A DNA stretch of 57,997 nucleotides from positions 1 to 57,997 of the forward strand of contig CAMEVC010000015.1 in the NCBI GenBank assembly GCA_945939115.1, given 5' to 3'. Each line of letters opens with the position of its first letter. Position 1 is the first letter of the stretch. The stretch comes from an uncultured Eubacterium sp. GTDB lineage: Bacteria > Bacillota > Clostridia > Lachnospirales > Lachnospiraceae. Below are positions 1,331 to 10,817 of the stretch, piece after piece. Below the pieces are notes generated by a model, which was not told where the DNA came from, did not search any database, and worked only from the letters and a program-made list of their open reading frames with translations. Both the position numbers and the translations under genes were made by a program.

Positions 1331-1852
1331 ATGAAATTTGCGAAAAGAACTGATATAGTTATGACCATTATATATACCGTTATTAGCATTTTACTTATTG
1401 CCGCATTTGTATTATCACTTATATATGCTAACAGCATGATGAATTACTTTGATGCCGGAAAGCTTAACAGCAGCAATTATTCTCCTGATGATGTCACTGC
1501 AGGCTACAGATTATTAGGTCATCTGTTCTATGGTGGATTTTCTTTTGCAGCATCACTTGTACTATATGTAGTTGCAATCTATGTTGCCATTTTCGGATTG
1601 CCACTTGTTATCATTACTATTTTTGCTTACATTGGCATGGCATTATTCAAGAAAACTAAGAATCCAAAGCATATCAGAAGAAATCTTATTGTCAAAATCA
1701 TATACACAGGCATATGGACTATTCTTGCTCTTATTATGACAATCAAGGATATCGGATTTGTTATTATATTTGCAATACCTGCAGTTATACTTTCCATTCT
1801 TATTGCCGCTGTTTATGGCATGAGAGAACATGAATATTTCTCTGAATATTAA
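1331..1852 (+). CDS. small multi-pass membrane protein, 173 aa
   Basis: The protein has about four to five hydrophobic segments: residues about 10-33, 68-90 and 85-108 (adjacent), 122-143 and 145-163. Short charged loops (KKTKNPKHIRRN near 108-119) suggest positive-inside orientation. No catalytic motif or known domain is visible. The ATG follows a GAGGGGG ribosome site. Its stop overlaps the stop of the convergent ABC ATPase gene by four bases. It could be unrelated to the transporter, because it is on the opposite strand with its own promoter. Function unknown. Confidence 0.75.
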   Translation: MKFAKRTDIVMTIIYTVISILLIAAFVLSLIYANSMMNYFDAGKLNSSNYSPDDVTAGYRLLGHLFYGGFSFAASLVLYVVAIYVAIFGLPLVIITIFAYIGMALFKKTKNPKHIRRNLIVKIIYTGIWTILALIMTIKDIGFVIIFAIPAVILSILIAAVYGMREHEYFSEY

Positions 1853-2478
1853 GATACTACTCTTCCTTCACTTATTTCAATAATTTCATCTGATAGCATC
1901 TCCAGTTCTTCTTTATCATGACATGCAATTATAATCACTGCACCTCTTTTCTTTTGTTCCTCTAGAATTTGATGTATTTTTTTTGCACCATCTTCGTCCA
2001 ATGCATTTATCGGTTCATCTAAAATAATAATATCAGGATTTTCCATAAAAGCTGCTGCAATTCCAAGCTTTTGCTTCATACCTAACGAATACTTCCTATA
2101 TATTCTCTTGTCATCTGGATCTAATCCAACCTGCTCCAAGGCTTTTCTGATTTGGTTATCATCAATTTTATTTTGAATAGATGCAAGAACCTTTAAATTT
2201 TTAAATCCGGTATAATTATTTATAAATGATGGATTCTCAATAAGTACGCCTATACTTCTTGGGAATGATATTTCTTTTCCCAAAACCTCTCCATCAATTG
2301 AAATTGTTCCACTTGTCGGCGTTATCAGACCACATATTGCGCGCATAAGCATTGTCTTTCCAGAACCATTCTTGCCTTTCAAACCATAAACCTTCCCACT
2401 TTCAAATTTCAAATTTATATTTGAAAGTATCTCATTCTTTTTTATTGTCTTTGACAGATTATTGATTTGAATAACCAT
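1849..2478 (-). CDS. ABC transporter ATP-binding protein
   Basis: This is a single nucleotide-binding domain of 209 residues. Walker A is GKNGSGKT (35-42), the signature is SLGMKQ (131-136), Walker B is IIILDEP (150-156), and the H-loop His is near 187. Such short NBDs with an LGMKQ-type signature go with ABC-2-type membrane subunits in peptide export or immunity systems. A good GAGGGAAA ribosome site precedes the ATG. It is the last gene of a leftward set that starts with the 74-residue peptide at 6449, so it most likely energises the three membrane proteins encoded at 2502, 3295 and 5375. The substrate is unknown. Confidence 0.9.
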   Translation of the reverse strand: MVIQINNLSKTIKKNEILSNINLKFESGKVYGLKGKNGSGKTMLMRAICGLITPTSGTISIDGEVLGKEISFPRSIGVLIENPSFINNYTGFKNLKVLASIQNKIDDNQIRKALEQVGLDPDDKRIYRKYSLGMKQKLGIAAAFMENPDIIILDEPINALDEDGAKKIHQILEEQKKRGAVIIIACHDKEELEMLSDEIIEISEGRVVS

Positions 2479-2501
2479 TTTCCCTCTTTTCTTTTACATC
2501 A

Positions 2502-3290
2502 TTATAAAAAATCAATATAATTAATTTTTCTTATTGATTCACATGTAAATAATATACTTAATAAAATTCCAATAACTAAACCAGCTGTAATATTTATACC
2601 ATTATCTGTTATCAATGAATTTCTAAATAACATAGATATGTTCCCCAAAAGAAAAGGTGATGTAATATAAACACATAAAATGTTGTAGCCCAAAATAAAT
2701 GCAAATGCTAATACCCTTCCAACATAAATATTTAAAAATATCTGAATAATTGCCTCAAATATTCCATATATCCATGGAAATACTGCAATCCACAAACCTA
2801 TATCCTTTTCTATTTTAACTCCGCAGATATACGAAAAATAATTATAATGTATACTAGAAAAATCCGTACTATAAAATACTGTATAAATCATTACCCCTAA
2901 AAATACACATAAATATATCATTGAAACTTTTAGAAATACATCTCTTATCTGACATATCATATAATGTTTACGCGAATTTGATTTTATTAAAATCCATTCA
3001 TCTTTAATAGAATTTTTTACATATGGAGCAAAATATCCACTTGCCAATATAAATAATTGAAGAGTAATCCATATGAATGGAATCTTAAAATTCCGGTCTT
3101 CAACATTTTTTAATTTCGGAATTCCTCCAAGAATATATAATATATTGTCTTTAAATGATATATTGCACTCTGATAATCCATTAATTGGGGTCACACTATC
3201 AATTCTAATCTGAAAATAAAAGCAACACATAATGGTAAAAAATATAACCGCCAGATATAAAAAAATATTTTTTCGAAAAAAATTTTTCAT
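2502..3290 (-). CDS. ABC-2-like membrane subunit, 262 aa
   Basis: The protein has about six hydrophobic segments (roughly residues 10-28, 70-90, 113-135, 165-190, 195-215, 230-250). Segment number, the lack of other motifs and the neighbouring ATPase fit an ABC-2-type permease. The ribosome site is weak, and the gene begins four bases after the stop of the previous gene, so translational coupling is likely. It is one of three membrane subunits in this operon; the three are not obviously copies of each other. I infer that it forms part of the transporter with the ATPase at 1849; a self-protection role is an alternative. Confidence 0.75.
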   Translation of the reverse strand: MKNFFRKNIFLYLAVIFFTIMCCFYFQIRIDSVTPINGLSECNISFKDNILYILGGIPKLKNVEDRNFKIPFIWITLQLFILASGYFAPYVKNSIKDEWILIKSNSRKHYMICQIRDVFLKVSMIYLCVFLGVMIYTVFYSTDFSSIHYNYFSYICGVKIEKDIGLWIAVFPWIYGIFEAIIQIFLNIYVGRVLAFAFILGYNILCVYITSPFLLGNISMLFRNSLITDNGINITAGLVIGILLSILFTCESIRKINYIDFL

Positions 3291-3294
3291 TATA

Positions 3295-4035
3295 TTATTT
3301 ATGACCTTTTTCTATAAATTCTTTGTGCTCCGAATAAATATATCCACAACAATATATACATAGAGCAATAATAAACAATCTAACTATTGCGTTTATTGAC
3401 TTAAGACTATTAGTTCCCCAATCCGTAATAATATAATTAAACCGCGAAAAGAACAGAGGAACATATGTAGGATGGATATCACTAATTGCTGCACCTATTA
3501 TAAATATCAAAGGTAAGAAACGCAAATCCGTTATCCATATAATCAACTGCGAAAAAGAAAAGCATACTACAGTCTGCATCATCAAAATCATCAGCGCCTT
3601 CAAAATAACAATGACAAAGCTGATATTGCTTGTTTTTCCCATGCTTTGTAATGCATATGAACTATTAAACTGATTCCAGTTAATTAACCCTCCGTCTTTA
3701 CAATAAAACATAGCAAAACTCATAGTAATTATCAGAACAAATGTGCACAACCCTAAAGAAATACAAAAACTTGTTTTTATCTGTTTATTCCATAGTCTGC
3801 GTCTATTCTTCACCTTTAAGACTTTCATGATTTGAAAATCATCTCTTGTCACATATAAATAATAAATTTCAAATAATGCAATAATTTTAGATATATTAAC
3901 AGCATTTGTTATAAATCTCAATTCATCTAAAATACATTTTTCTCCCGGATATTTTATAAAGCTGGCAGCAAACAAAATATAACCGGTAAGCATAATTACA
4001 ATCATGCCAAGAATTTCATTTATATACTTTCTCAT
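3295..4035 (-). CDS. ABC-2-like membrane subunit, 246 aa
   Basis: About six membrane helices are visible (roughly residues 8-28, 45-63, 90-112, 140-162, 170-188, 210-232). A basic cytoplasmic loop, KVKNRRRLWNKQIKTS, near 73-88, resembles the coupling region of ABC-2 permeases that contacts the ATPase. The AAAGGGA ribosome site lies five bases before the ATG. It sits between an anchored extracytoplasmic protein (4046) and another permease (2502). The family cannot be named from the sequence alone; the assignment rests on topology and operon context. Confidence 0.75.
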   Translation of the reverse strand: MRKYINEILGMIVIMLTGYILFAASFIKYPGEKCILDELRFITNAVNISKIIALFEIYYLYVTRDDFQIMKVLKVKNRRRLWNKQIKTSFCISLGLCTFVLIITMSFAMFYCKDGGLINWNQFNSSYALQSMGKTSNISFVIVILKALMILMMQTVVCFSFSQLIIWITDLRFLPLIFIIGAAISDIHPTYVPLFFSRFNYIITDWGTNSLKSINAIVRLFIIALCIYCCGYIYSEHKEFIEKGHK

Positions 4036-4045
4036 ACTATCCCTT

Positions 4046-4819
4046 TTATCTTTCTTTTCCAGTCAAATCAAGGGCAATAAACCGGTTTTGCTTTTTAGTC
4101 ACTGATGATATTCCTGTCTGTCCATCATTAGGAAATATACATATATCATTCTTTTTCACAGCATTTTCCGGAACCAGATATACCAATTCAAAACTAATCG
4201 AATCATTTACCCCAAAATCATATAATATTCCATTATTTCCAAATAAATCTTCCGTATTGGGTCTGTATATATAATCATCTGAACTATGGTATTTGTATTG
4301 CGCAATTCCTTCTTTGCTAACTTCAATATAGCAGTTTTTTTTAGGTAAATATGAAATGCTTTTTTCCCCTATATTTTTTACTGTAAAGTCAACATATAGA
4401 TAATAATAATCCTTTAATATTGTTCCATCATTATCAAAATTATCCTGTCCAAAATCTTCTTTTAATCTTTCTTTAAATTTAATACCATCATCTAATTTCC
4501 TGCTATATGAATAATCTGTCACTGTAATTTGTTGTCTTTCAATTGGTTCCGACTTCCCATTATAATAAAATTCTACTTCAACAGGTTCTCCTGCCTGAAA
4601 TATCTGCGAGACATCAATCTGTACCTCTCCATCATCAAAAACAGAAGTTTGCTTTTGGTTTTCTTGTACTGAACTGCTTTTTCTATCTGTTTCATTATCT
4701 TTATTATCTTCTTTTGCTACAAACCATCCGTTTTTTAATGCAATTATCATGCAAACAGACATAACAATAATTAATACAATCGAAATTATTTTTTTATATT
4801 TTCCATTATTCATATTCAT
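4046..4819 (-). CDS. membrane-anchored extracytoplasmic protein, 257 aa
   Basis: Residues about 10-30 form one hydrophobic anchor without a lipobox. A polar linker (DNKDNETDRKSSS) follows, and then an extracytoplasmic domain of about 190 residues made mainly of beta strands, with YLYVDFTVKNIGEKSISYLPKK-like wording typical of DUF4352/DUF5067-type immunoglobulin-like domains. The run just quoted is split here as YLYVDFTVKN and IGEKSISYL. I chose the second possible ATG because AGAGG lies six bases before it. Together with the similar-sized protein at 4832 it probably sits on the outer face of the membrane beside the ABC subunits, perhaps as a substrate- or immunity-related factor. Confidence 0.7.
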   Translation of the reverse strand: MNMNNGKYKKIISIVLIIVMSVCMIIALKNGWFVAKEDNKDNETDRKSSSVQENQKQTSVFDDGEVQIDVSQIFQAGEPVEVEFYYNGKSEPIERQQITVTDYSYSRKLDDGIKFKERLKEDFGQDNFDNDGTILKDYYYLYVDFTVKNIGEKSISYLPKKNCYIEVSKEGIAQYKYHSSDDYIYRPNTEDLFGNNGILYDFGVNDSISFELVYLVPENAVKKNDICIFPNDGQTGISSVTKKQNRFIALDLTGKER

Positions 4820-4831
4820 AGCCATCCTCTT

Positions 4832-5365
4832 TTATTTACACTTCATAATAATTGCCTGCGGATATGTGCTTAAAACAAGCTCACATTTTTCTAACGGTGG
4901 GGAATCCCAGCTTTTTTTTGATATAGCATACTTTGAATTTACAATACTTGTAATAAGATACACTGTTTTTGTTTCTCCTTTAATTAACTCTCTATCTTTC
5001 CGCAGCCTTGCTGTATTCCACATACCATTTGAACATGCACCTATCTGAATACGATTTTTTGATACTAACAGCGTCGTTTTCTCCTCATCCCCGACATAAG
5101 TAACATCAACACCTATTACTACAATCTTCTGTTCATAAAAATTTTCTTCCTGCTGGCTTTTTTCAAAAAATTGCCTTGCTTCTTCTATATCATCATATAC
5201 ATTTACACTACGAATCTTATAAACAATGTCATTAAAGCAGCACTTCTCACCAAATTCGTATACATATTTATCCACCTTATCACTATATACATTAACATAG
5301 ATTATTCTCGAAACTATACATATAATAATTATAATTACTGCAATTATCTGTATTCTCCTTTTCAT
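4832..5365 (-). CDS. membrane-anchored extracytoplasmic protein, 177 aa (DUF5028-like)
   Basis: The protein starts MKRRIQ and has a very hydrophobic helix (about residues 7-27, rich in Ile) and an outer domain of about 145 residues. The pattern VVIGVDVTYVG followed by a long beta-rich tail resembles the small anchored proteins often annotated DUF5028 beside ABC-2 permeases; this is recalled, not searched. The ATG chosen follows AGGTGG by five bases; an upstream GTG in frame overlaps that site and is less likely. It has two cysteines (near 42-43) and others near 130 and 160. It lies between a permease and the other anchored protein in one operon. Confidence 0.7.
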   Translation of the reverse strand: MKRRIQIIAVIIIIICIVSRIIYVNVYSDKVDKYVYEFGEKCCFNDIVYKIRSVNVYDDIEEARQFFEKSQQEENFYEQKIVVIGVDVTYVGDEEKTTLLVSKNRIQIGACSNGMWNTARLRKDRELIKGETKTVYLITSIVNSKYAISKKSWDSPPLEKCELVLSTYPQAIIMKCK

Positions 5366-5374
5366 ACTCACCAC

Positions 5375-6208
5375 CTAAAGCATATCTTTTCTTTTTCTTA
5401 TCCTATTAATATAAACAAGCATCAATATCGATAAATATATTAACATCTGAAGAATTATCTGTAATAAATCGTCCTTCAAAACATCATTAAATCGGAGATA
5501 TTCCCACGAAGGGACAAAATCATCTTTCCAAAAATTACTAATAATAAACCCGAAAAAATATATGCAAAAAGGTGAAATCATTACAACATAACTGTTAGAA
5601 AAAATATATGTTGCTATATAACAAAACAAATTCAACAATCCGAATCCAACAAATGTTGCAACCATAAACAGCAAACAATATAATACCGGTTTACTATAGA
5701 ATAATTCGGAAAAAAAATACGCATCACCCATAAATTGTTTCAGACAAGGAAAAACATTTTCAAATGGAAGAAGCATTGCACTGAGTAAAAAGCTTAATAA
5801 AAAAGGAAATACTGCACATATTCCACCAGATAAAAACATTACTATCAGCTTTGCCGAATAGAAATTAATTTTTTTCGTTCTGGTAATAATATTGTAATAA
5901 TAATGATTATTTTCATCTATATATAATGAATCACCATATGGAAAAGCTGCTAAAATTGGCAGCACTGAATATATTATTGTTCTCATTTGTCCATAATGCA
6001 GTCCAATCCATATTGAAAATGCTCCCGGAATATTATCGACTTTTCCAGTCCACGAATTATCAAGCAAAAAAGGTATTGTTTTCGTTTTTATATCAATACC
6101 GTATGAAATAAAATCATATATAATCAGCGCCGTCTCAATTATTAAAACAATTAACATTCTTTTATTTTTAAATGCTCTGTCAAATTCTATCTTAAATAGC
6201 TGCTTCAT
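5375..6208 (-). CDS. ABC-2-like membrane subunit, 277 aa
   Basis: The N-terminus, MKQLFKIEFDRAFKNKRML, followed by a first helix at about 19-38, is the usual opening of ABC-2-type permeases: an amphipathic membrane-surface helix and then TM1. Five further hydrophobic segments follow (near 78-95, 118-145, 180-205, 208-232, 250-270). It is the first membrane gene after the 74-residue peptide, 16 bases downstream, and its ribosome site (GGAAT) is weak. It probably pairs with one of the other two membrane subunits and the ATPase at 1849. Confidence 0.8.
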   Translation of the reverse strand: MKQLFKIEFDRAFKNKRMLIVLIIETALIIYDFISYGIDIKTKTIPFLLDNSWTGKVDNIPGAFSIWIGLHYGQMRTIIYSVLPILAAFPYGDSLYIDENNHYYYNIITRTKKINFYSAKLIVMFLSGGICAVFPFLLSFLLSAMLLPFENVFPCLKQFMGDAYFFSELFYSKPVLYCLLFMVATFVGFGLLNLFCYIATYIFSNSYVVMISPFCIYFFGFIISNFWKDDFVPSWEYLRFNDVLKDDLLQIILQMLIYLSILMLVYINRIRKRKDML

Positions 6209-6224
6209 CTTTTTTTAATTCCTT

Positions 6225-6449
6225 TTACCATTGATCACTGTCCGGCATCCACATACCATGACCTTCATACATAGCGTCTGTCACAGACTCTCCTCTCAAT
6301 ACTGCTTTAGAATATCCGCTTTCTCTTACCCAATTATATATATAACTATTCTCACCAGGAAATAACTTCACTTCCTGTTTTCTGATAGTTTCATCTATCC
6401 CATACTGTCCATATCCAACAACCGTCATAACCCTTCTATCATTATACAT
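6225..6449 (-). CDS. 74-residue peptide of unknown family, first gene of the transporter operon
   Basis: The peptide has no cysteine, no hydrophobic signal, no Gly-Gly leader site and no membrane segment. Its N-terminal third contains VVGYGQYGIDE; the C-terminal end, GHGMWMPDSDQW, is rich in Met, Trp and acidic residues. An AGGAGA ribosome site lies six bases before the ATG, which together with the promoter and the operator-like repeats upstream argues for a real gene. Being the first gene after a LytTR-controlled promoter and before an ABC export-type system, it could be a secreted signal, a bacteriocin-like product or an intracellular partner. No modifying enzyme (radical SAM, LanM, YcaO) or AgrB-like protease is nearby. 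Confidence 0.7.
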   Translation of the reverse strand: MYNDRRVMTVVGYGQYGIDETIRKQEVKLFPGENSYIYNWVRESGYSKAVLRGESVTDAMYEGHGMWMPDSDQW

Positions 6450-6488
6450 AGAATCTCCTTTTTTAGTAAAAATTGATTCATATAAAAG

Positions 6489-6514
6489 AGAGCATCCAAA
6501 TCACTAGATGCTCT
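6489..6514 (-). terminator. hairpin between kinase gene and peptide gene
   Basis: A perfect eight-base-pair stem (AGAGCATC 6489-6496, GATGCTCT 6507-6514) with a ten-base loop is followed on the minus strand by CTTTTATA. It can act as a weak terminator for the regulator/kinase transcript. Its 5' arm begins only two bases after the -10 box of the peptide promoter, so a transcript started at that promoter would lack part of the arm. Confidence 0.5.
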
Positions 6515-6516
6515 AC

Positions 6517-6522
6517 ATTATA
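6517..6522 (-). promoter_or_regulatory. -10 box of the peptide/ABC operon
   Basis: TATAAT on the minus strand, 68 bases before the peptide ATG. No good -35 box lies at 16-18 bases, as expected for an activator-dependent promoter; the LytTR-type repeats end 33 bases upstream. Confidence 0.6.
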
Positions 6523-6551
6523 ACGATAAAATTATTCATTTTATATACGCT

Positions 6552-6584
6552 TGGCATAAACTGTTTATTTCTGGCACAAACTGT
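6552..6584 (-). promoter_or_regulatory. candidate LytTR-regulator binding site (two direct repeats)
   Basis: Read on the minus strand, ACAGTTTGTGCCA is followed 20 bases later (start to start) by ACAGTTTATGCCA; 12 of 13 bases agree. LytTR-family regulators such as AgrA and ComE bind two ACAGTT-like direct repeats about two helical turns apart, upstream of activated promoters. The pair ends 33 bases before the -10 box of the peptide operon and reaches into the stop codon of the histidine kinase gene. A LytTR regulator is encoded at 7843. Confidence 0.7.
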
Positions 6585-7828
6585 CATGATTTCAACAAAA
6601 TAACCTTACAATTCATCATTTGGTTATTTTCCTCATATGTAATTTCTCCGCTGTACTTGTCAACTATTTCTGTTATACTTTTCATGCCATATCCATGTAA
6701 TTCATGGTTCCTCTTTGTAGTCAAAAAAACAGGATTAGTTTTTAACACACTTTTTGCTATTGAATTTTCAACTACAATCTCAATAAAACTTCTATCATAG
6801 ATTTCCAAATTCACAATTTTATCTTTTGATCGTTCTGCAGCTTCAATTGCATTATCTAACAGATTTCCTATTAGTATGCTAAGATCAACGTCATGCACAT
6901 CTTTTATTTTTCCAAATACAACACATTTAAACTCCACATCACTCTGTAAGCATTTAGTTCTTTTGTCATTAATAATGTAATTTATCACTTGATTATCACA
7001 ATATTTTGTATATCCGAATGCATCCACCTTAGTTTCAATTAATTCATCCATATATTTTTTTGCATTCTCGTATTCATGTTCGTCAATAAATCCTTTTGCT
7101 ACAATAATACTATGTTTTATATCATGTCTTAGTTTTTTTGCCTCATCATACATCTTTTCTATGCGTTCTATCTCGCTATATTTATACACATATTCAAGCT
7201 TTTCTATTGTTTCATCCATTCTTATCATTGTATGCTTATAGTTAAATATCAGTAAAAATGATACAATAAATTCTATAACAAGAGTAATTCTCAGAAATTT
7301 ATTATTCTGATTTACCCATTCTCCAACAGGTACTACCGAATAATATACCATTATAGAATAACAAATTGAATTAACCAAAATGCTTAGTATTATTTTATTT
7401 TGCGCTGACTGTTCTGATAAAAATCTATTTATTACTCTGAACAGCACTTCATTAAATACAATGTACACTCCATATAAAAGAAAAGTCAGCATCACATCAG
7501 CAAAATTTCCATAAAAAAAACACTGAATGTATCCTGTCGTACACAAAACAATTACCATTGAAGCGATTATTTCTTTCGTCAGATATTTCATTTCTTTTAT
7601 AATCAGAGTCATAGTCAGAATAAACAATACCGGTATATTGACTGAATACCCTCCAATCCGCATTTTCTCATTTCCTTGAAATCCAAACCCAATTAATAGA
7701 ATTGCCAATACAGATACAAGTAATGTTAAGCGTTTCTTTTTTTCTATAACATCTAATACACTTTCTGCAGCAATACATATAATTGAGATATATGCAGCAT
7801 ACATAATCACAGGAAATATCTTATTCAT
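6584..7828 (-). CDS. AgrC-like GHKL sensor histidine kinase
   Basis: The N-terminal half holds about six membrane helices (residues about 1-200). A linker helix leads to LRHDIKH, with the phosphoacceptor His near residue 235, and then a GHKL ATPase domain with the N box NLLDNAIEAA and the G box YGMKSI. This order is that of peptide-sensing kinases of the AgrC/ComD type. I place the start at an ATG preceded by AGAAGG; a TTG 18 bases upstream would overlap the regulator stop. It should phosphorylate the LytTR regulator encoded directly upstream and signal to the peptide operon downstream. The ligand is unknown. Confidence 0.9.
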   Translation of the reverse strand: MNKIFPVIMYAAYISIICIAAESVLDVIEKKKRLTLLVSVLAILLIGFGFQGNEKMRIGGYSVNIPVLFILTMTLIIKEMKYLTKEIIASMVIVLCTTGYIQCFFYGNFADVMLTFLLYGVYIVFNEVLFRVINRFLSEQSAQNKIILSILVNSICYSIMVYYSVVPVGEWVNQNNKFLRITLVIEFIVSFLLIFNYKHTMIRMDETIEKLEYVYKYSEIERIEKMYDEAKKLRHDIKHSIIVAKGFIDEHEYENAKKYMDELIETKVDAFGYTKYCDNQVINYIINDKRTKCLQSDVEFKCVVFGKIKDVHDVDLSILIGNLLDNAIEAAERSKDKIVNLEIYDRSFIEIVVENSIAKSVLKTNPVFLTTKRNHELHGYGMKSITEIVDKYSGEITYEENNQMMNCKVILLKS

Positions 7829-7842
7829 TTTATCCTTCTCAC

Positions 7843-8562
7843 TCAACTGTTATTTTTCACTTTAAATCTTTCATATTTATCTATAAAATTCTGATAATAA
7901 TTTCTACTTATAGCCATTGATTTTTTATTCGATAATATTAGATTGTGTTTATCAATTTTATCAATATGCTTCATATTAACCACGACCCCTCTATTTATTT
8001 CTACGAAACCTCCCGATATTAGTTCATCAATATGATTACTTATTTTATCCCTGATTTGTACATCTTCTGCAAATGTTGATACAATCACGTCATGCCGGAA
8101 ATTCTGAATCATACATACATCGTTTACCATAAACATTTTCTTGTGTTTCAGCTCTCCCATAACAATAATTGTATTATTTATAGTCAACTGTTTAATTACA
8201 CGAATCATAGCCAGCCTAAATTCCTTAGAAAACAACCTCTTCCTGACAAACCCTAATGGTCTGTATTCAAAAGAATCATACACAAGATTTTCATAAGTCG
8301 TAACAAATATAATGCTTAACTTCTCATATTTTTTTCTCATTTCATTTGCAATTTGAAAACCATCCTCTGACCCTAATTCAATATCCAAAAAAACTACATC
8401 TATTACTACGTTATCTAATAGCTCTTTTAAATCCTGTCCTGAATTACAACATATCAGTTCGTAATCAATCTCCGCAAATTCTAATTTCATTATTTGGATA
8501 ATCGTATCTTGTTCTTGCTTACAGAAATTTTCATCATCATCACATATAGCTATTTTAATCAT
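7843..8562 (-). CDS. LytTR-family response regulator
   Basis: Receiver domain at residues 1-120 with the acidic pocket CDDDE and the phosphorylated Asp in VVFLDIELG (near residue 60). Residues about 135-239 form a LytTR DNA-binding domain (VEINRGVVVNMKHIDKID, then LILSNKKSMAISRNYYQ). I chose the ATG at 8560-8562, eight bases after GGGA; an in-frame TTG two codons earlier is an alternative. The gene is followed directly by the kinase gene. The direct repeats at 6552-6584 are its likely target. Confidence 0.93.
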   Translation of the reverse strand: MIKIAICDDDENFCKQEQDTIIQIMKLEFAEIDYELICCNSGQDLKELLDNVVIDVVFLDIELGSEDGFQIANEMRKKYEKLSIIFVTTYENLVYDSFEYRPLGFVRKRLFSKEFRLAMIRVIKQLTINNTIIVMGELKHKKMFMVNDVCMIQNFRHDVIVSTFAEDVQIRDKISNHIDELISGGFVEINRGVVVNMKHIDKIDKHNLILSNKKSMAISRNYYQNFIDKYERFKVKNNS

Positions 8563-8586
8563 AATCAATTTCCCATATTGAAGAAT

Positions 8587-8609
8587 AAGCAGGCCAATAT
8601 GACCTGCTT
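8587..8609 (-). terminator. hairpin after nrdD
   Basis: AAGCAGG (8587-8593) pairs perfectly with CCTGCTT (8603-8609) across a nine-base loop. It lies 31 bases after the nrdD stop and upstream of the regulator gene. The minus-strand tail, ATTCTTC, is only modestly T-rich, so termination may be partial. Confidence 0.5.
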
Positions 8610-8639
8610 TTCATCTTCTCCAATCACATTTATCAATTT

Positions 8640-10817
8640 TTATAAATGAAGCACTCTTTCTTTAATCTCCTGAGTTCTTCCCTGATTCCAGAACTGTGTT
8701 CCGATATAACCGCAGGTACGTCTTGCAACATTCATCTTATCCTGATCACGGTTTCCGCAGTTAGGGCACTCCCATATAAGCTTTCCGTCATCATCAGTAA
8801 TAATCTGAATCTGACCTGTATAACCACACTCCTGGCAATAATCACTCTTTGTATTAAGCTCGGCATACATTATATTCTCATAAATATACTGCATAACCTT
8901 AAGAACGGCAGGAATATTGTTCTGCATATCCGGTACCTCAACATAGCTGATAGCTCCACCTGGTGACAATTTCTGGAACTGTGCTTCAAACTTGAGTTTC
9001 TCAAATGCATTTATATTCTCTGTGACATGTACATGATAACTGTTAGTAATATAATTTCTGTCTGTTACTCCAGGAATCTTGCCGAATCTCTTCTGGAGAC
9101 ACTTGGCAAACTTGTAAGTTGTTGACTCAAGCGGCGTTCCATAAAGCGAGAAATCAATATTGGTCTCTGCTGCCCACCTCTTGCAGGTATCGTTGAGATA
9201 CTGCATTACCTTAAGTGCGAATTCTGTTCCTTCCGGATTAGTATGTGTAACACCCTTCATGTAATATGTACACTCACATAATCCTGCGTATCCTAAGGAT
9301 ATTGTCGAATAGCCTCCATAAAGAAGCTTATCTATTGTCTCACCCTTCTTAAGTCTTGCAAGCGCACCATTCTGCCAGAGAATAGGAGCAACATCTGAAG
9401 GTGTGCCCTTTAACCTGTAATGTCTGCACATAAGCGCTCTCTTACACAGTTCAAGCCTTTCATCAAGAATGCTCCAGAACTTATCCATATCCTTTCCTGA
9501 TGAGCAGGCAACATCCACAAGGTTGAGTGTTACAACTCCCTGATTGAATCTTCCATAATACTTAGCCTTATTGTTCTCATCAAGATACGTTGTAAGGAAT
9601 GAACGGCATCCCATACATGGATAACAGTTGCCATTGCCGTTAGCATCAACCTTAAGTTCCTTCATAATCTTTTCTGAAATGTAGTCCGGAACCATTCTCT
9701 TAGCTGTACACTGTGCAGCTATCTGTGTGAGGTACCAGTACTTAGAATCCTCATGTATATTATCCTCCTCAAGAACATATATAAGCTTAGGGAAAGCTGG
9801 TGTAATATACACGCCCTGCTCATTCTTAACACCCTGTATTCTCTGTCTTAACACTTCCTCTGTAACTAATGCAAGGTCATCTCTTGTCTGTCCTTCCGGA
9901 ACCTCATCAAGATACATGAATACTGTTACAAACGGAGCCTGTCCGTTAGTTGTCATAAGGGTAATTACCTGATACTGTATCATCTGGACACCGCGCTTAA
10001 TCTCATCTCTTACGCGAAGCTCAGCTACCTCTCTTATCTTATCATCTGATGCCTCTATGCCTGTCTTTTCAAACTCTTCCCTTACCTGTGAAATAAACTT
10101 TTCACGGCTTACCTGTACAAAAGGAGCAAGATGCGCAAGGGATATGCTCTGTCCTCCATACTGGGAACTGGCAATCTGCGCAATAGCCTGCGTTGCAATA
10201 TTACATGCAGTTGAGAAGCTATGCGGTTTCTCAATCATTGTCTCACTTATAACAGTACCATTCTGGAGCATATCCTCAAGATTGACAAGGCAGCAGTTAT
10301 GCATATGCTGTGCAAAATAATCCGCATCGTGGAAATGTATAAGTCCCTGCTCATGTGCATCCACAATATCTGCCGGGAGAAGAAGTCTCTTAGTGATATC
10401 CTTGCTGACCTCTCCAGCCATATAATCTCTCTGAACACTGTTGACAGTAGGATTCTTATTGGAATTCTCCTGCTTAACCTCCTCGTTATTGCACTCCAGA
10501 AGGCTCAGAATCTGTTCGTCCGTTGAATTAGACTTACGAACAAGTGCTCTCTTATAGCGGTATGTTATATACTTTCTTGCAACTGCAAATGCTCTTAAAT
10601 TCATAATCTGGTTCTCGACAAGATCCTGAATTTCCTCAACGCTTAATGACCTGTTCATCTCTTTACAGATATTCTCAACATTATTAGATATTGTCTCAAT
10701 CTGTTCATCTGACAGTCTCTCACTGTGAACCACTTCATTGTTGGCTTTAGACACGGCAGCCATAATCTTTGTGATATCAAATGTTACTTCTGATCCACTT
10801 CTTTTAATAATCTTCAT
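8640..10817 (-). CDS. nrdD: anaerobic (class III) ribonucleoside-triphosphate reductase
   Basis: This glycyl-radical enzyme reduces ribonucleoside triphosphates to deoxyribonucleotides in the absence of oxygen. Residues about 3-95 form an ATP-cone (KRSGSEVTFDITKI), which senses dATP/ATP. The C-terminus holds the zinc site CQEC...CPNC and the glycyl-radical motif RRTCGYIG with the radical Gly near residue 703. At 725 residues it is full length. A GAGGG site lies eight bases before the ATG. The partner activase gene nrdG, often next to nrdD, is not in the window. The upstream promoter carries NrdR-box-like sites. Confidence 0.98.
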   Translation of the reverse strand: MKIIKRSGSEVTFDITKIMAAVSKANNEVVHSERLSDEQIETISNNVENICKEMNRSLSVEEIQDLVENQIMNLRAFAVARKYITYRYKRALVRKSNSTDEQILSLLECNNEEVKQENSNKNPTVNSVQRDYMAGEVSKDITKRLLLPADIVDAHEQGLIHFHDADYFAQHMHNCCLVNLEDMLQNGTVISETMIEKPHSFSTACNIATQAIAQIASSQYGGQSISLAHLAPFVQVSREKFISQVREEFEKTGIEASDDKIREVAELRVRDEIKRGVQMIQYQVITLMTTNGQAPFVTVFMYLDEVPEGQTRDDLALVTEEVLRQRIQGVKNEQGVYITPAFPKLIYVLEEDNIHEDSKYWYLTQIAAQCTAKRMVPDYISEKIMKELKVDANGNGNCYPCMGCRSFLTTYLDENNKAKYYGRFNQGVVTLNLVDVACSSGKDMDKFWSILDERLELCKRALMCRHYRLKGTPSDVAPILWQNGALARLKKGETIDKLLYGGYSTISLGYAGLCECTYYMKGVTHTNPEGTEFALKVMQYLNDTCKRWAAETNIDFSLYGTPLESTTYKFAKCLQKRFGKIPGVTDRNYITNSYHVHVTENINAFEKLKFEAQFQKLSPGGAISYVEVPDMQNNIPAVLKVMQYIYENIMYAELNTKSDYCQECGYTGQIQIITDDDGKLIWECPNCGNRDQDKMNVARRTCGYIGTQFWNQGRTQEIKERVLHL

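Follow-up and report, generated by a model that had tools for sequence, protein, structure and literature searches.

Introduction

Lactococcin 972, encoded on the plasmid pBL1, and mediterrocin are small unmodified proteins secreted via the Sec pathway, and in both cases the structural gene is followed by membrane and ATP-binding cassette (ABC) transporter genes. Mediterrocin of Mediterraneibacter gnavus, a member of the Lachnospiraceae, was identified by mass spectrometry; it is described as a 114-residue precursor with a 25-residue signal peptide, and a DUF1430 protein as its probable immunity protein (PMC12345188). Here we describe a nine-gene cluster whose family displays this general layout, located on a 57,997-nucleotide stretch of DNA (the window; contig CAMEVC010000015.1, assembly GCA_945939115.1) from an uncultured Eubacterium sp. 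of the Lachnospiraceae. It encodes a LytTR-type response regulator (RR), an AgrC-like sensor histidine kinase (HK), a 74-residue open reading frame (ORF), three ABC-2-like membrane subunits (A, B and C), two anchored outer-face proteins (1 and 2) and an ATPase. The gene set belongs to a large, uncharacterised cluster family of the Lachnospiraceae, for which mediterrocin is the nearest studied analogue in gut bacteria. The 74-residue ORF is an N-terminally truncated copy of a protein that is normally exported by a signal peptide. On balance, and with some reserve, we favour the interpretation that the window carries a horizontally acquired, regulated copy of a bacteriocin-type cluster with a truncated toxin gene, which would make its host an immune non-producer.

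The cluster differs from the described systems in several respects. Whereas the lactococcin 972 cassette contains a DUF1430 partner, the window has three ABC-2-like subunits and anchored proteins, with no DUF1430 protein among the nine genes, and its peptide gene, unlike those of lactococcin 972 and mediterrocin, lacks a signal peptide. A first-pass annotation made from the sequence alone had stated that the locus fits no agr, lantibiotic or class II bacteriocin locus, and this holds, parts required for each being missing. A lantibiotic locus was rejected because the ORF contains no Cys and no modification enzyme is encoded among the nine genes, both as the annotation had described. With respect to the LanFEG transporters of lantibiotic immunity, the window ATPase is nearest the lantibiotic-protection ATPase family of NCBIfam, though below its cut-off (178.3 bits against 309.75), and we take the anchored outer-face proteins to recall LanI. 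A class II bacteriocin was rejected in the absence of a double-glycine leader in the ORF and of a peptidase domain on the ATPase. The AgrC-like kinase and LytTR regulator are shared with agr quorum sensing. However, no AgrB model matched at E≤1e-3 among the window ORFs of at least 50 residues, in agreement with the annotation, no AgrD-like frame was seen between the kinase and the ORF (6584-6450), and the kinase scored 38.1 bits against the curated AgrC cut-off of 500, a staphylococcal model; an agr system was thus rejected as well. Anti-phage defence was likewise set aside: the ATPase was the one gene with a PADLOC match, and the models that it matched were those of ATPase-type proteins.

A secreted protein truncated in the window

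When 397 genomes sampled over the Lachnospiraceae (334 genera) were searched with the 74-residue sequence, six genomes were retrieved, the window's own and those of five relatives, with frames of 122-152 residues. One relative displayed 41% identity over ORF residues 9-71 (E 4.1e-8), and the ORF is therefore not a chance reading frame. A hydrophobic N-terminus representing a signal peptide was present in four of these five relatives; in the fifth (L013; related loci are given L numbers) a stop codon lies within it. Since most relatives have a signal peptide and a length of about 145 residues, the ORF corresponds to the back half of such a protein. Consistent features at the C-terminus are a G followed by N-x-V-x-E and a W-x-x-D end, which mostly reads W-S-P-D-S. 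In a profile of 24 members, the window ORF included, it spans positions 70-143 of 144. The ORF is also related to PF10916 (DUF2712), a family with no known function; being truncated, it covers model positions 44-111 of 111 and stays below the cut-off (17.8 against 22 bits). Two of the first five relatives pass this cut-off (L014 with 47.5 bits and L012 with 29.7 bits), and a DUF2712 match at E≤10 was obtained for 14 of the 24 aligned members.

The frame upstream of the ORF ATG is open for just 17 codons and encodes no signal peptide. Peak hydropathy over 15 residues is 0.24 in the ORF, compared with 1.66-2.79 in the first 70 residues of signal-bearing members. The product has no Cys and no hydrophobic stretch, an isoelectric point (pI) of 4.9 and a charge of -3.4. 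An AlphaFold model of full-length L014 consists of an all-beta domain, with a block mean predicted local distance difference test (pLDDT) score of 78-94 over residues 31-130. The window ORF begins at about L014 residue 60 (59-63 by alignment), and it therefore leaves out strand 1 and most, if not all, of strand 2. A single sequencing error is ruled out as the cause of the truncation, as merely ~100 bases separate the operator described below from the ATG.

Leaderless bacteriocins are small cationic peptides that are active from their own Met. We give very little credence to the possibility that the 74-residue ORF is a functional peptide of this kind, exported by the adjoining ABC transporter. 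It would account for the ribosome site with an ATG at normal spacing, the promoter-like leader, and a frame that has stayed open with its C-terminal features conserved. However, the relatives are longer and carry signal peptides, so that their export does not require the transporter. The ORF also lacks strand 1 and most of strand 2 of the domain as modelled, and its negative charge and low pI are unlike those of the cationic leaderless bacteriocins. The earlier proposal that the ORF itself is a secreted leaderless product is abandoned here in favour of a truncated copy.

A family of clusters in the Lachnospiraceae

A scan of the 397 genomes for the peptide family (E≤1e-5) gave matches in 29 genomes belonging to 26 of the 334 genera. 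At the genus level, 12 of 22 genomes matched at E≤0.05, ten of them firmly; the weak matches, in genomes G399 and G406, lie inside frames of 645 and 576 residues. PF10916 itself matched in one of 391 genomes over the class at E≤0.001, and no relatives were confirmed when genome contigs were scanned with either the ORF or the kinase. A typical member has about 145 residues, a signal peptide and the W-S-P-D-S end, and falls within Pfam DUF2712 or near it. Its gene is typically accompanied by those of ABC-2-like membrane subunits, an ATPase and anchored outer-face proteins, often with a LytTR/AgrC-like pair.

We examined 24 peptide-bearing loci with long flanks, the window included, using custom models trained partly on the same loci. 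The peptide gene adjoins transporter genes in all 24. Subunit A was detected in 23, subunit C in 22, and subunit B and the ATPase in 18 each, while anchored protein 2 was found in 22 and anchored protein 1 in 10, RR in 14, HK in 13 and AgrB in four; several of these loci end at contig ends, and divergent anchored 1 ORFs were missed by their model. Among 24 further loci with flanks of ~1.5 kb, 21 contain at least one such gene and the other three are short loci. As all loci were picked by the peptide gene, the counts address the presence of the transporter with the peptide and not the reverse. In most related loci the peptide gene heads the operon. The window has the three ABC-2-like subunits, the ATPase and the two anchored proteins of the family next to its peptide gene, but this gene lacks the N-terminal signal peptide.

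The window's own genome contains a further cluster (L067) with a 149-residue peptide gene that includes a signal peptide. Two other transporter sets of this genome carry two anchored-1 genes each (L016, 1371-3006; L017, 9023-10706), which are near-identical in L016. L018 (1-2691), on contig 28 of the same genome, encodes the end of an ATPase, in which the contig begins, and then AgrB, a LytTR regulator, a kinase and a sugar kinase, a gene order that is also that of a plasmid cluster in [Eubacterium] eligens.

Besides the AgrB genes in four sister clusters, AgrD-like ORFs are situated just upstream of the peptide gene in L011, L061, L067 and L051. In L011, a 748-residue protein with a GxxGSGKS P-loop (by eye) is encoded between AgrB and the peptide gene (5091-7337). 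The first-pass annotation had raised the question of whether the peptide gene travels with the kinase and regulator; the association stands for the 14 and 13 loci mentioned above, and in the remaining loci these genes were not found. The frequent presence of an AgrC-like kinase and LytTR regulator would also suit an explanation in which the secreted DUF2712-like protein is a signal for its own kinase and not a toxin, the transporter answering some other stress. We hold this to be fairly unlikely. In ten of the 24 loci there is no RR within 9 kb on the stretch covered, and in agr-type clusters the protein has AgrD-like peptides, the usual ligands of AgrC, beside it. The protein itself is a folded domain of ~105 residues, and the cassettes of Lactococcus lactis contain no two-component pair.

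Our literature searches found no paper naming DUF2712 or PF10916 and no account of LytTR-controlled bacteriocin/ABC transporter clusters in the Lachnospiraceae. Family members are not named as bacteriocins in Pfam or NCBIfam.

Relatives on lactococcal plasmids

The L014 protein displayed weak whole-length matches on four L. lactis plasmids (E 0.02-0.07, 25-26% identity), where the copies are annotated as hypothetical proteins. The plasmid relative was confirmed by profile comparison with hhalign (97.6%, E 3e-12), and subunit A and the ATPase of the cassette match our custom models. On pLlaUC109V, a mobilizable plasmid of 8.5 kb, the peptide gene and subunit A are followed by two further membrane genes, the ATPase and the gene for a 179-residue protein with a hydrophobic N-terminus. 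The last three unlabelled genes gave no match to the custom models and no anchored-1 counterpart was found. No two-component pair accompanies the lactococcal cassettes. pLlaUC109V and pBL1 have two pieces in common, one of 296 bp (82%) and one of 264 bp (80%), the latter ending ~90 bp before the peptide gene of pLlaUC109V and ~160 bp before the lactococcin 972 gene of pBL1. With these pieces of backbone in common, the DUF2712-like cassette occupies the slot of the bacteriocin cassette in pBL1. On a second L. lactis plasmid, the peptide gene adjoins genes for a Blp class II bacteriocin, HlyD and a peptide exporter.

Several observations weigh against a bacteriocin function. There is no profile relation to the lactococcin 972 family (hhalign probabilities of 0.8% and 8%); one of the 24 members matches TIGR01653, at E 0.32. 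Among the 50 fold matches listed, the lactococcin 972 fold (2LGN) does not occur, which by itself excludes nothing. In the L. lactis cassette, neither of the two anchored-protein models found a match. A survey of L. lactis plasmids included an inhibition screen of available strains and reported six producers; in the part of it available to us, UC109 is not among the six inhibitory strains, its inclusion in the screen and its identity with the strain of the database record not being evident, and no UC109 plasmid is listed in the bacteriocin table (PMC6458302). No report of antibacterial activity for any DUF2712-like protein was found in the literature searched. Finally, no peptide gene was found in the transporter sets L016 and L017, so that the transporter may have other uses.

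These two sets, with their transporter and anchored genes, and the resemblance of the ATPase to lantibiotic-protection ATPases, would agree with a cluster that is mainly a detoxification or immunity transporter against foreign bacteriocins, the peptide gene being a passenger. The position of the peptide gene at the head of the operon in most related loci argues against this, and we judge it improbable, although for the window copy alone it overlaps with the explanation that we prefer. It also seems unlikely to us that members of the family bind or support structures outside the cell, such as glycans or the cell wall, with the ABC set serving in envelope stress.

Of the readings of the family, a bacteriocin-like system with its own immunity, as suggested in the first-pass annotation, is the best supported, by the signal peptides, the dedicated ABC set and the lactococcin 972 slot; it is from these that we infer antibacterial activity. 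A broader proposal, which we make only tentatively, is that DUF2712-like proteins constitute a new and widespread class of Sec-secreted folded bacteriocins, occurring in gut Lachnospiraceae and dairy lactococci, with ABC transporters and anchored beta-sandwich proteins for immunity and with exchangeable regulators (a LytTR pair or a full agr system). The window copy would then be a natural mosaic, with the regulator and leader of one cluster joined just behind the start codon to the structural genes of another, a join by which both the agr genes and the part of the toxin gene responsible for export were lost.

Gene set, operator and leader in the window

All nine genes are present on the minus strand at the positions first assigned (1849-8568; Table 1). 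Their order is mostly as first described, except that both anchored proteins stand between the first and second membrane subunits. No firm family was found in Pfam or NCBIfam for the three membrane subunits and the two anchored proteins. In PHROGs, the best match of the nine-gene locus was no better than E 7e-4, with none for the 74-residue ORF. A sequence search of solved structures gave a single match (E 1.3), and in a viral fold library the top E value was 2.5e-4, with TM-scores of 0.5 or less.

Table 1. Positions of the genes and of the predicted regulatory elements of the cluster in the window.
Feature	Position	Strand	Remarks
LytTR response regulator	8568-7843	minus	TTG start as listed, in-frame ATG at 8562; Response_reg 4.3e-11, LytTR 7.2e-11
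AgrC-like GHKL sensor kinase	7846-6584	minus	HATPase_c_5 1.1e-19; AgrC model 38.1 bits
LytTR-type direct repeats, probable operator	6584-6573 and 6564-6553	minus	ACAGTTTGTGCC and ACAGTTTATGCC, respectively; spacing 20 bp; sole two motif matches in window
TATAAT, possible -10 element	6522-6517	minus	by eye
Terminator-like leader hairpin	6514-6489	minus	11 pairs against 0.0 expected in shuffles; leader z-score -3.35
74-residue ORF lacking a signal peptide, C-terminal half of a secreted protein of DUF2712-like type	6449-6225	minus	PF10916 17.8 bits
ABC transporter membrane subunit A, 277 residues	6208-5375	minus	no Pfam family
Anchored outer-face protein 2, 180 residues	5374-4832	minus	hydrophobic segment at N-terminus
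Anchored outer-face protein 1, 259 residues	4825-4046	minus	one helix and beta-sandwich
Membrane subunit B, 246 residues	4035-3295	minus	
Membrane subunit C, 262 residues	3290-2502	minus	
ABC ATPase	2478-1849	minus	ABC_tran 7e-33; Walker A, signature and Walker B motifs intact

The operator-like site noted earlier ahead of the peptide gene proved to be real. Apart from its two repeats, the degenerate motif AC[AC][AG][CT]TT[AG]TGCC has no match on either strand of the window. When the 260 bp upstream were base-shuffled 200 times, an equally good pair arose in 7 cases. A promoter scan returned two promoter-like matches where 1.8 were expected, and the TATAAT at 6522 was not listed among them. 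The leader hairpin is followed by a ribosome site and, at normal spacing, the ATG of the 74-residue ORF at 6449, so that both the operator repeats and the ribosome site look intact in front of the truncated gene.

By eye, the window leader up to the ATG is built of the same parts as that of L050, namely the repeats, a hairpin, AAGGAG and the ATG. Operator-like repeats of the same motif occur in L050, L052 and L064, and were not seen upstream of the other peptide genes tested (e.g. L011, L012 and L014). Besides the window, clear leader hairpins are present in L011 (7450-7526, z -4.87) and, before an anchored gene, in L050 (8105-8170, z -5.57). The leader before the L050 peptide gene was no better than chance (z -1.21), and hairpins were not clear in L061 (z +0.88) or in L064 (z -1.03, the folded stretch having cut into its hairpin). 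The strong hairpins are possibly attenuators; they are absent from some of the leaders tested.

Origin of the window copy

The GC content of the operon is 29.1%, compared with 41.0% for nrdD and 40.0% from nrdD to the end of the window. In three relatives (L071-L073), the sequence that begins 48-59 bp after nrdD is one placed ~6.8 kb away in the window, and a fourth (L074) fits a cluster-free nrdD junction by a match further on; the remaining 14 of 18 relatives gave no match on that side. When the operon DNA (2502-8640) was compared with the 21 other genomes of the genus, no match was obtained at E≤1e-10 except at the nrdD end. The cluster is thus a foreign-looking, low-GC insertion of ~6.8 kb beside nrdD.

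Different parts of the cluster have different nearest relatives. RR and HK are closest to those of L050 and L052 (RR 35-36%), both of which lack AgrB and contain similar operator repeats. For the ORF (42%) as for subunit A (40%), the closest clusters are L061 and L011, with L058 near; L061 and L011, two of the three clusters closest by peptide and subunit A, carry AgrB. This distribution suggests that the regulator and leader of one cluster were joined to the peptide gene of another just behind the start codon, and such a join would account at once for the lack of agr genes and for the lost signal peptide. The window ATPase is 77-79% identical to those of L050 and L051, whereas their membrane subunits, anchored proteins and peptides are just ~20-44% identical to those of the window; the outer parts diverge between clusters and the ATPase motor does not.

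Lesions at or near the N-terminus were found in 8 of 51 copies of the peptide gene, with the C-terminal domain remaining open (the window, L013, L051, L062, L107, L115 and both copies of L121). In-frame stops account for four of them and a frame-shift for one, and three copies lack the front in frame; the other 43 copies look intact at the N-terminus. The count comprises 27 copies in the 24 long loci and 25 in the 24 further loci, 52 in all, less that of L058, which is cut by a contig end. L092-L097, repeats of loci already counted, and copies from the 397-genome scan with no locus were left out. No lesions were seen in the back two thirds, where lesioned copies are harder to find by these searches, and draft genomes are among those used. 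Export may thus have been lost commonly in the family; a kept role for the remaining C-terminal domain is possible but unsupported. The first-pass annotation had asked whether the peptide gene is absent or broken while the operon persists. In part this is so: no peptide gene was found in L016 and L017, and eight copies carry lesions, but the other 43 look intact at the N-terminus.

On the [Eubacterium] eligens plasmid NC_012780.1 (L049), the region 9696-10171 holds an unannotated DUF2712-like ORF, with 130 residues from the first ATG and no signal peptide. What is annotated there, in another and overlapping frame, is a 'cyclic lactone autoinducer peptide' (WP_012740377.1).

Discussion

In the mechanism that we propose, clusters of this family would normally produce a Sec-secreted, folded, unmodified antibacterial protein, a DUF2712-like beta-sandwich of ~105 residues after signal cleavage. 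A dedicated multi-subunit ABC transporter, together with membrane-anchored outer-face proteins, is predicted to protect the producer. The membrane kinase would sense a signal, and the LytTR regulator would bind the repeats at 6584-6553 and switch on the operon of the peptide and transporter genes. In the window, the peptide gene has lost the signal peptide and the N-terminal half while retaining the operator, leader and ribosome site. Translation of the 74-residue fragment is therefore possible, but its export is improbable, and it presumably does nothing. The locus would thus amount to a regulated transporter and immunity module without a secreted product.

The case also shows that what looks like an 'orphan peptide' can be all that is left of a longer secreted protein, namely its tail. 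If our interpretation is correct, about 7% of the sampled Lachnospiraceae genomes (29/397) would carry an unnamed class of secreted antibacterial protein, which would have a bearing on competition in the gut. The window copy would then represent a natural immune non-producer, and its make-up would suggest that clusters swap their regulator and toxin modules.

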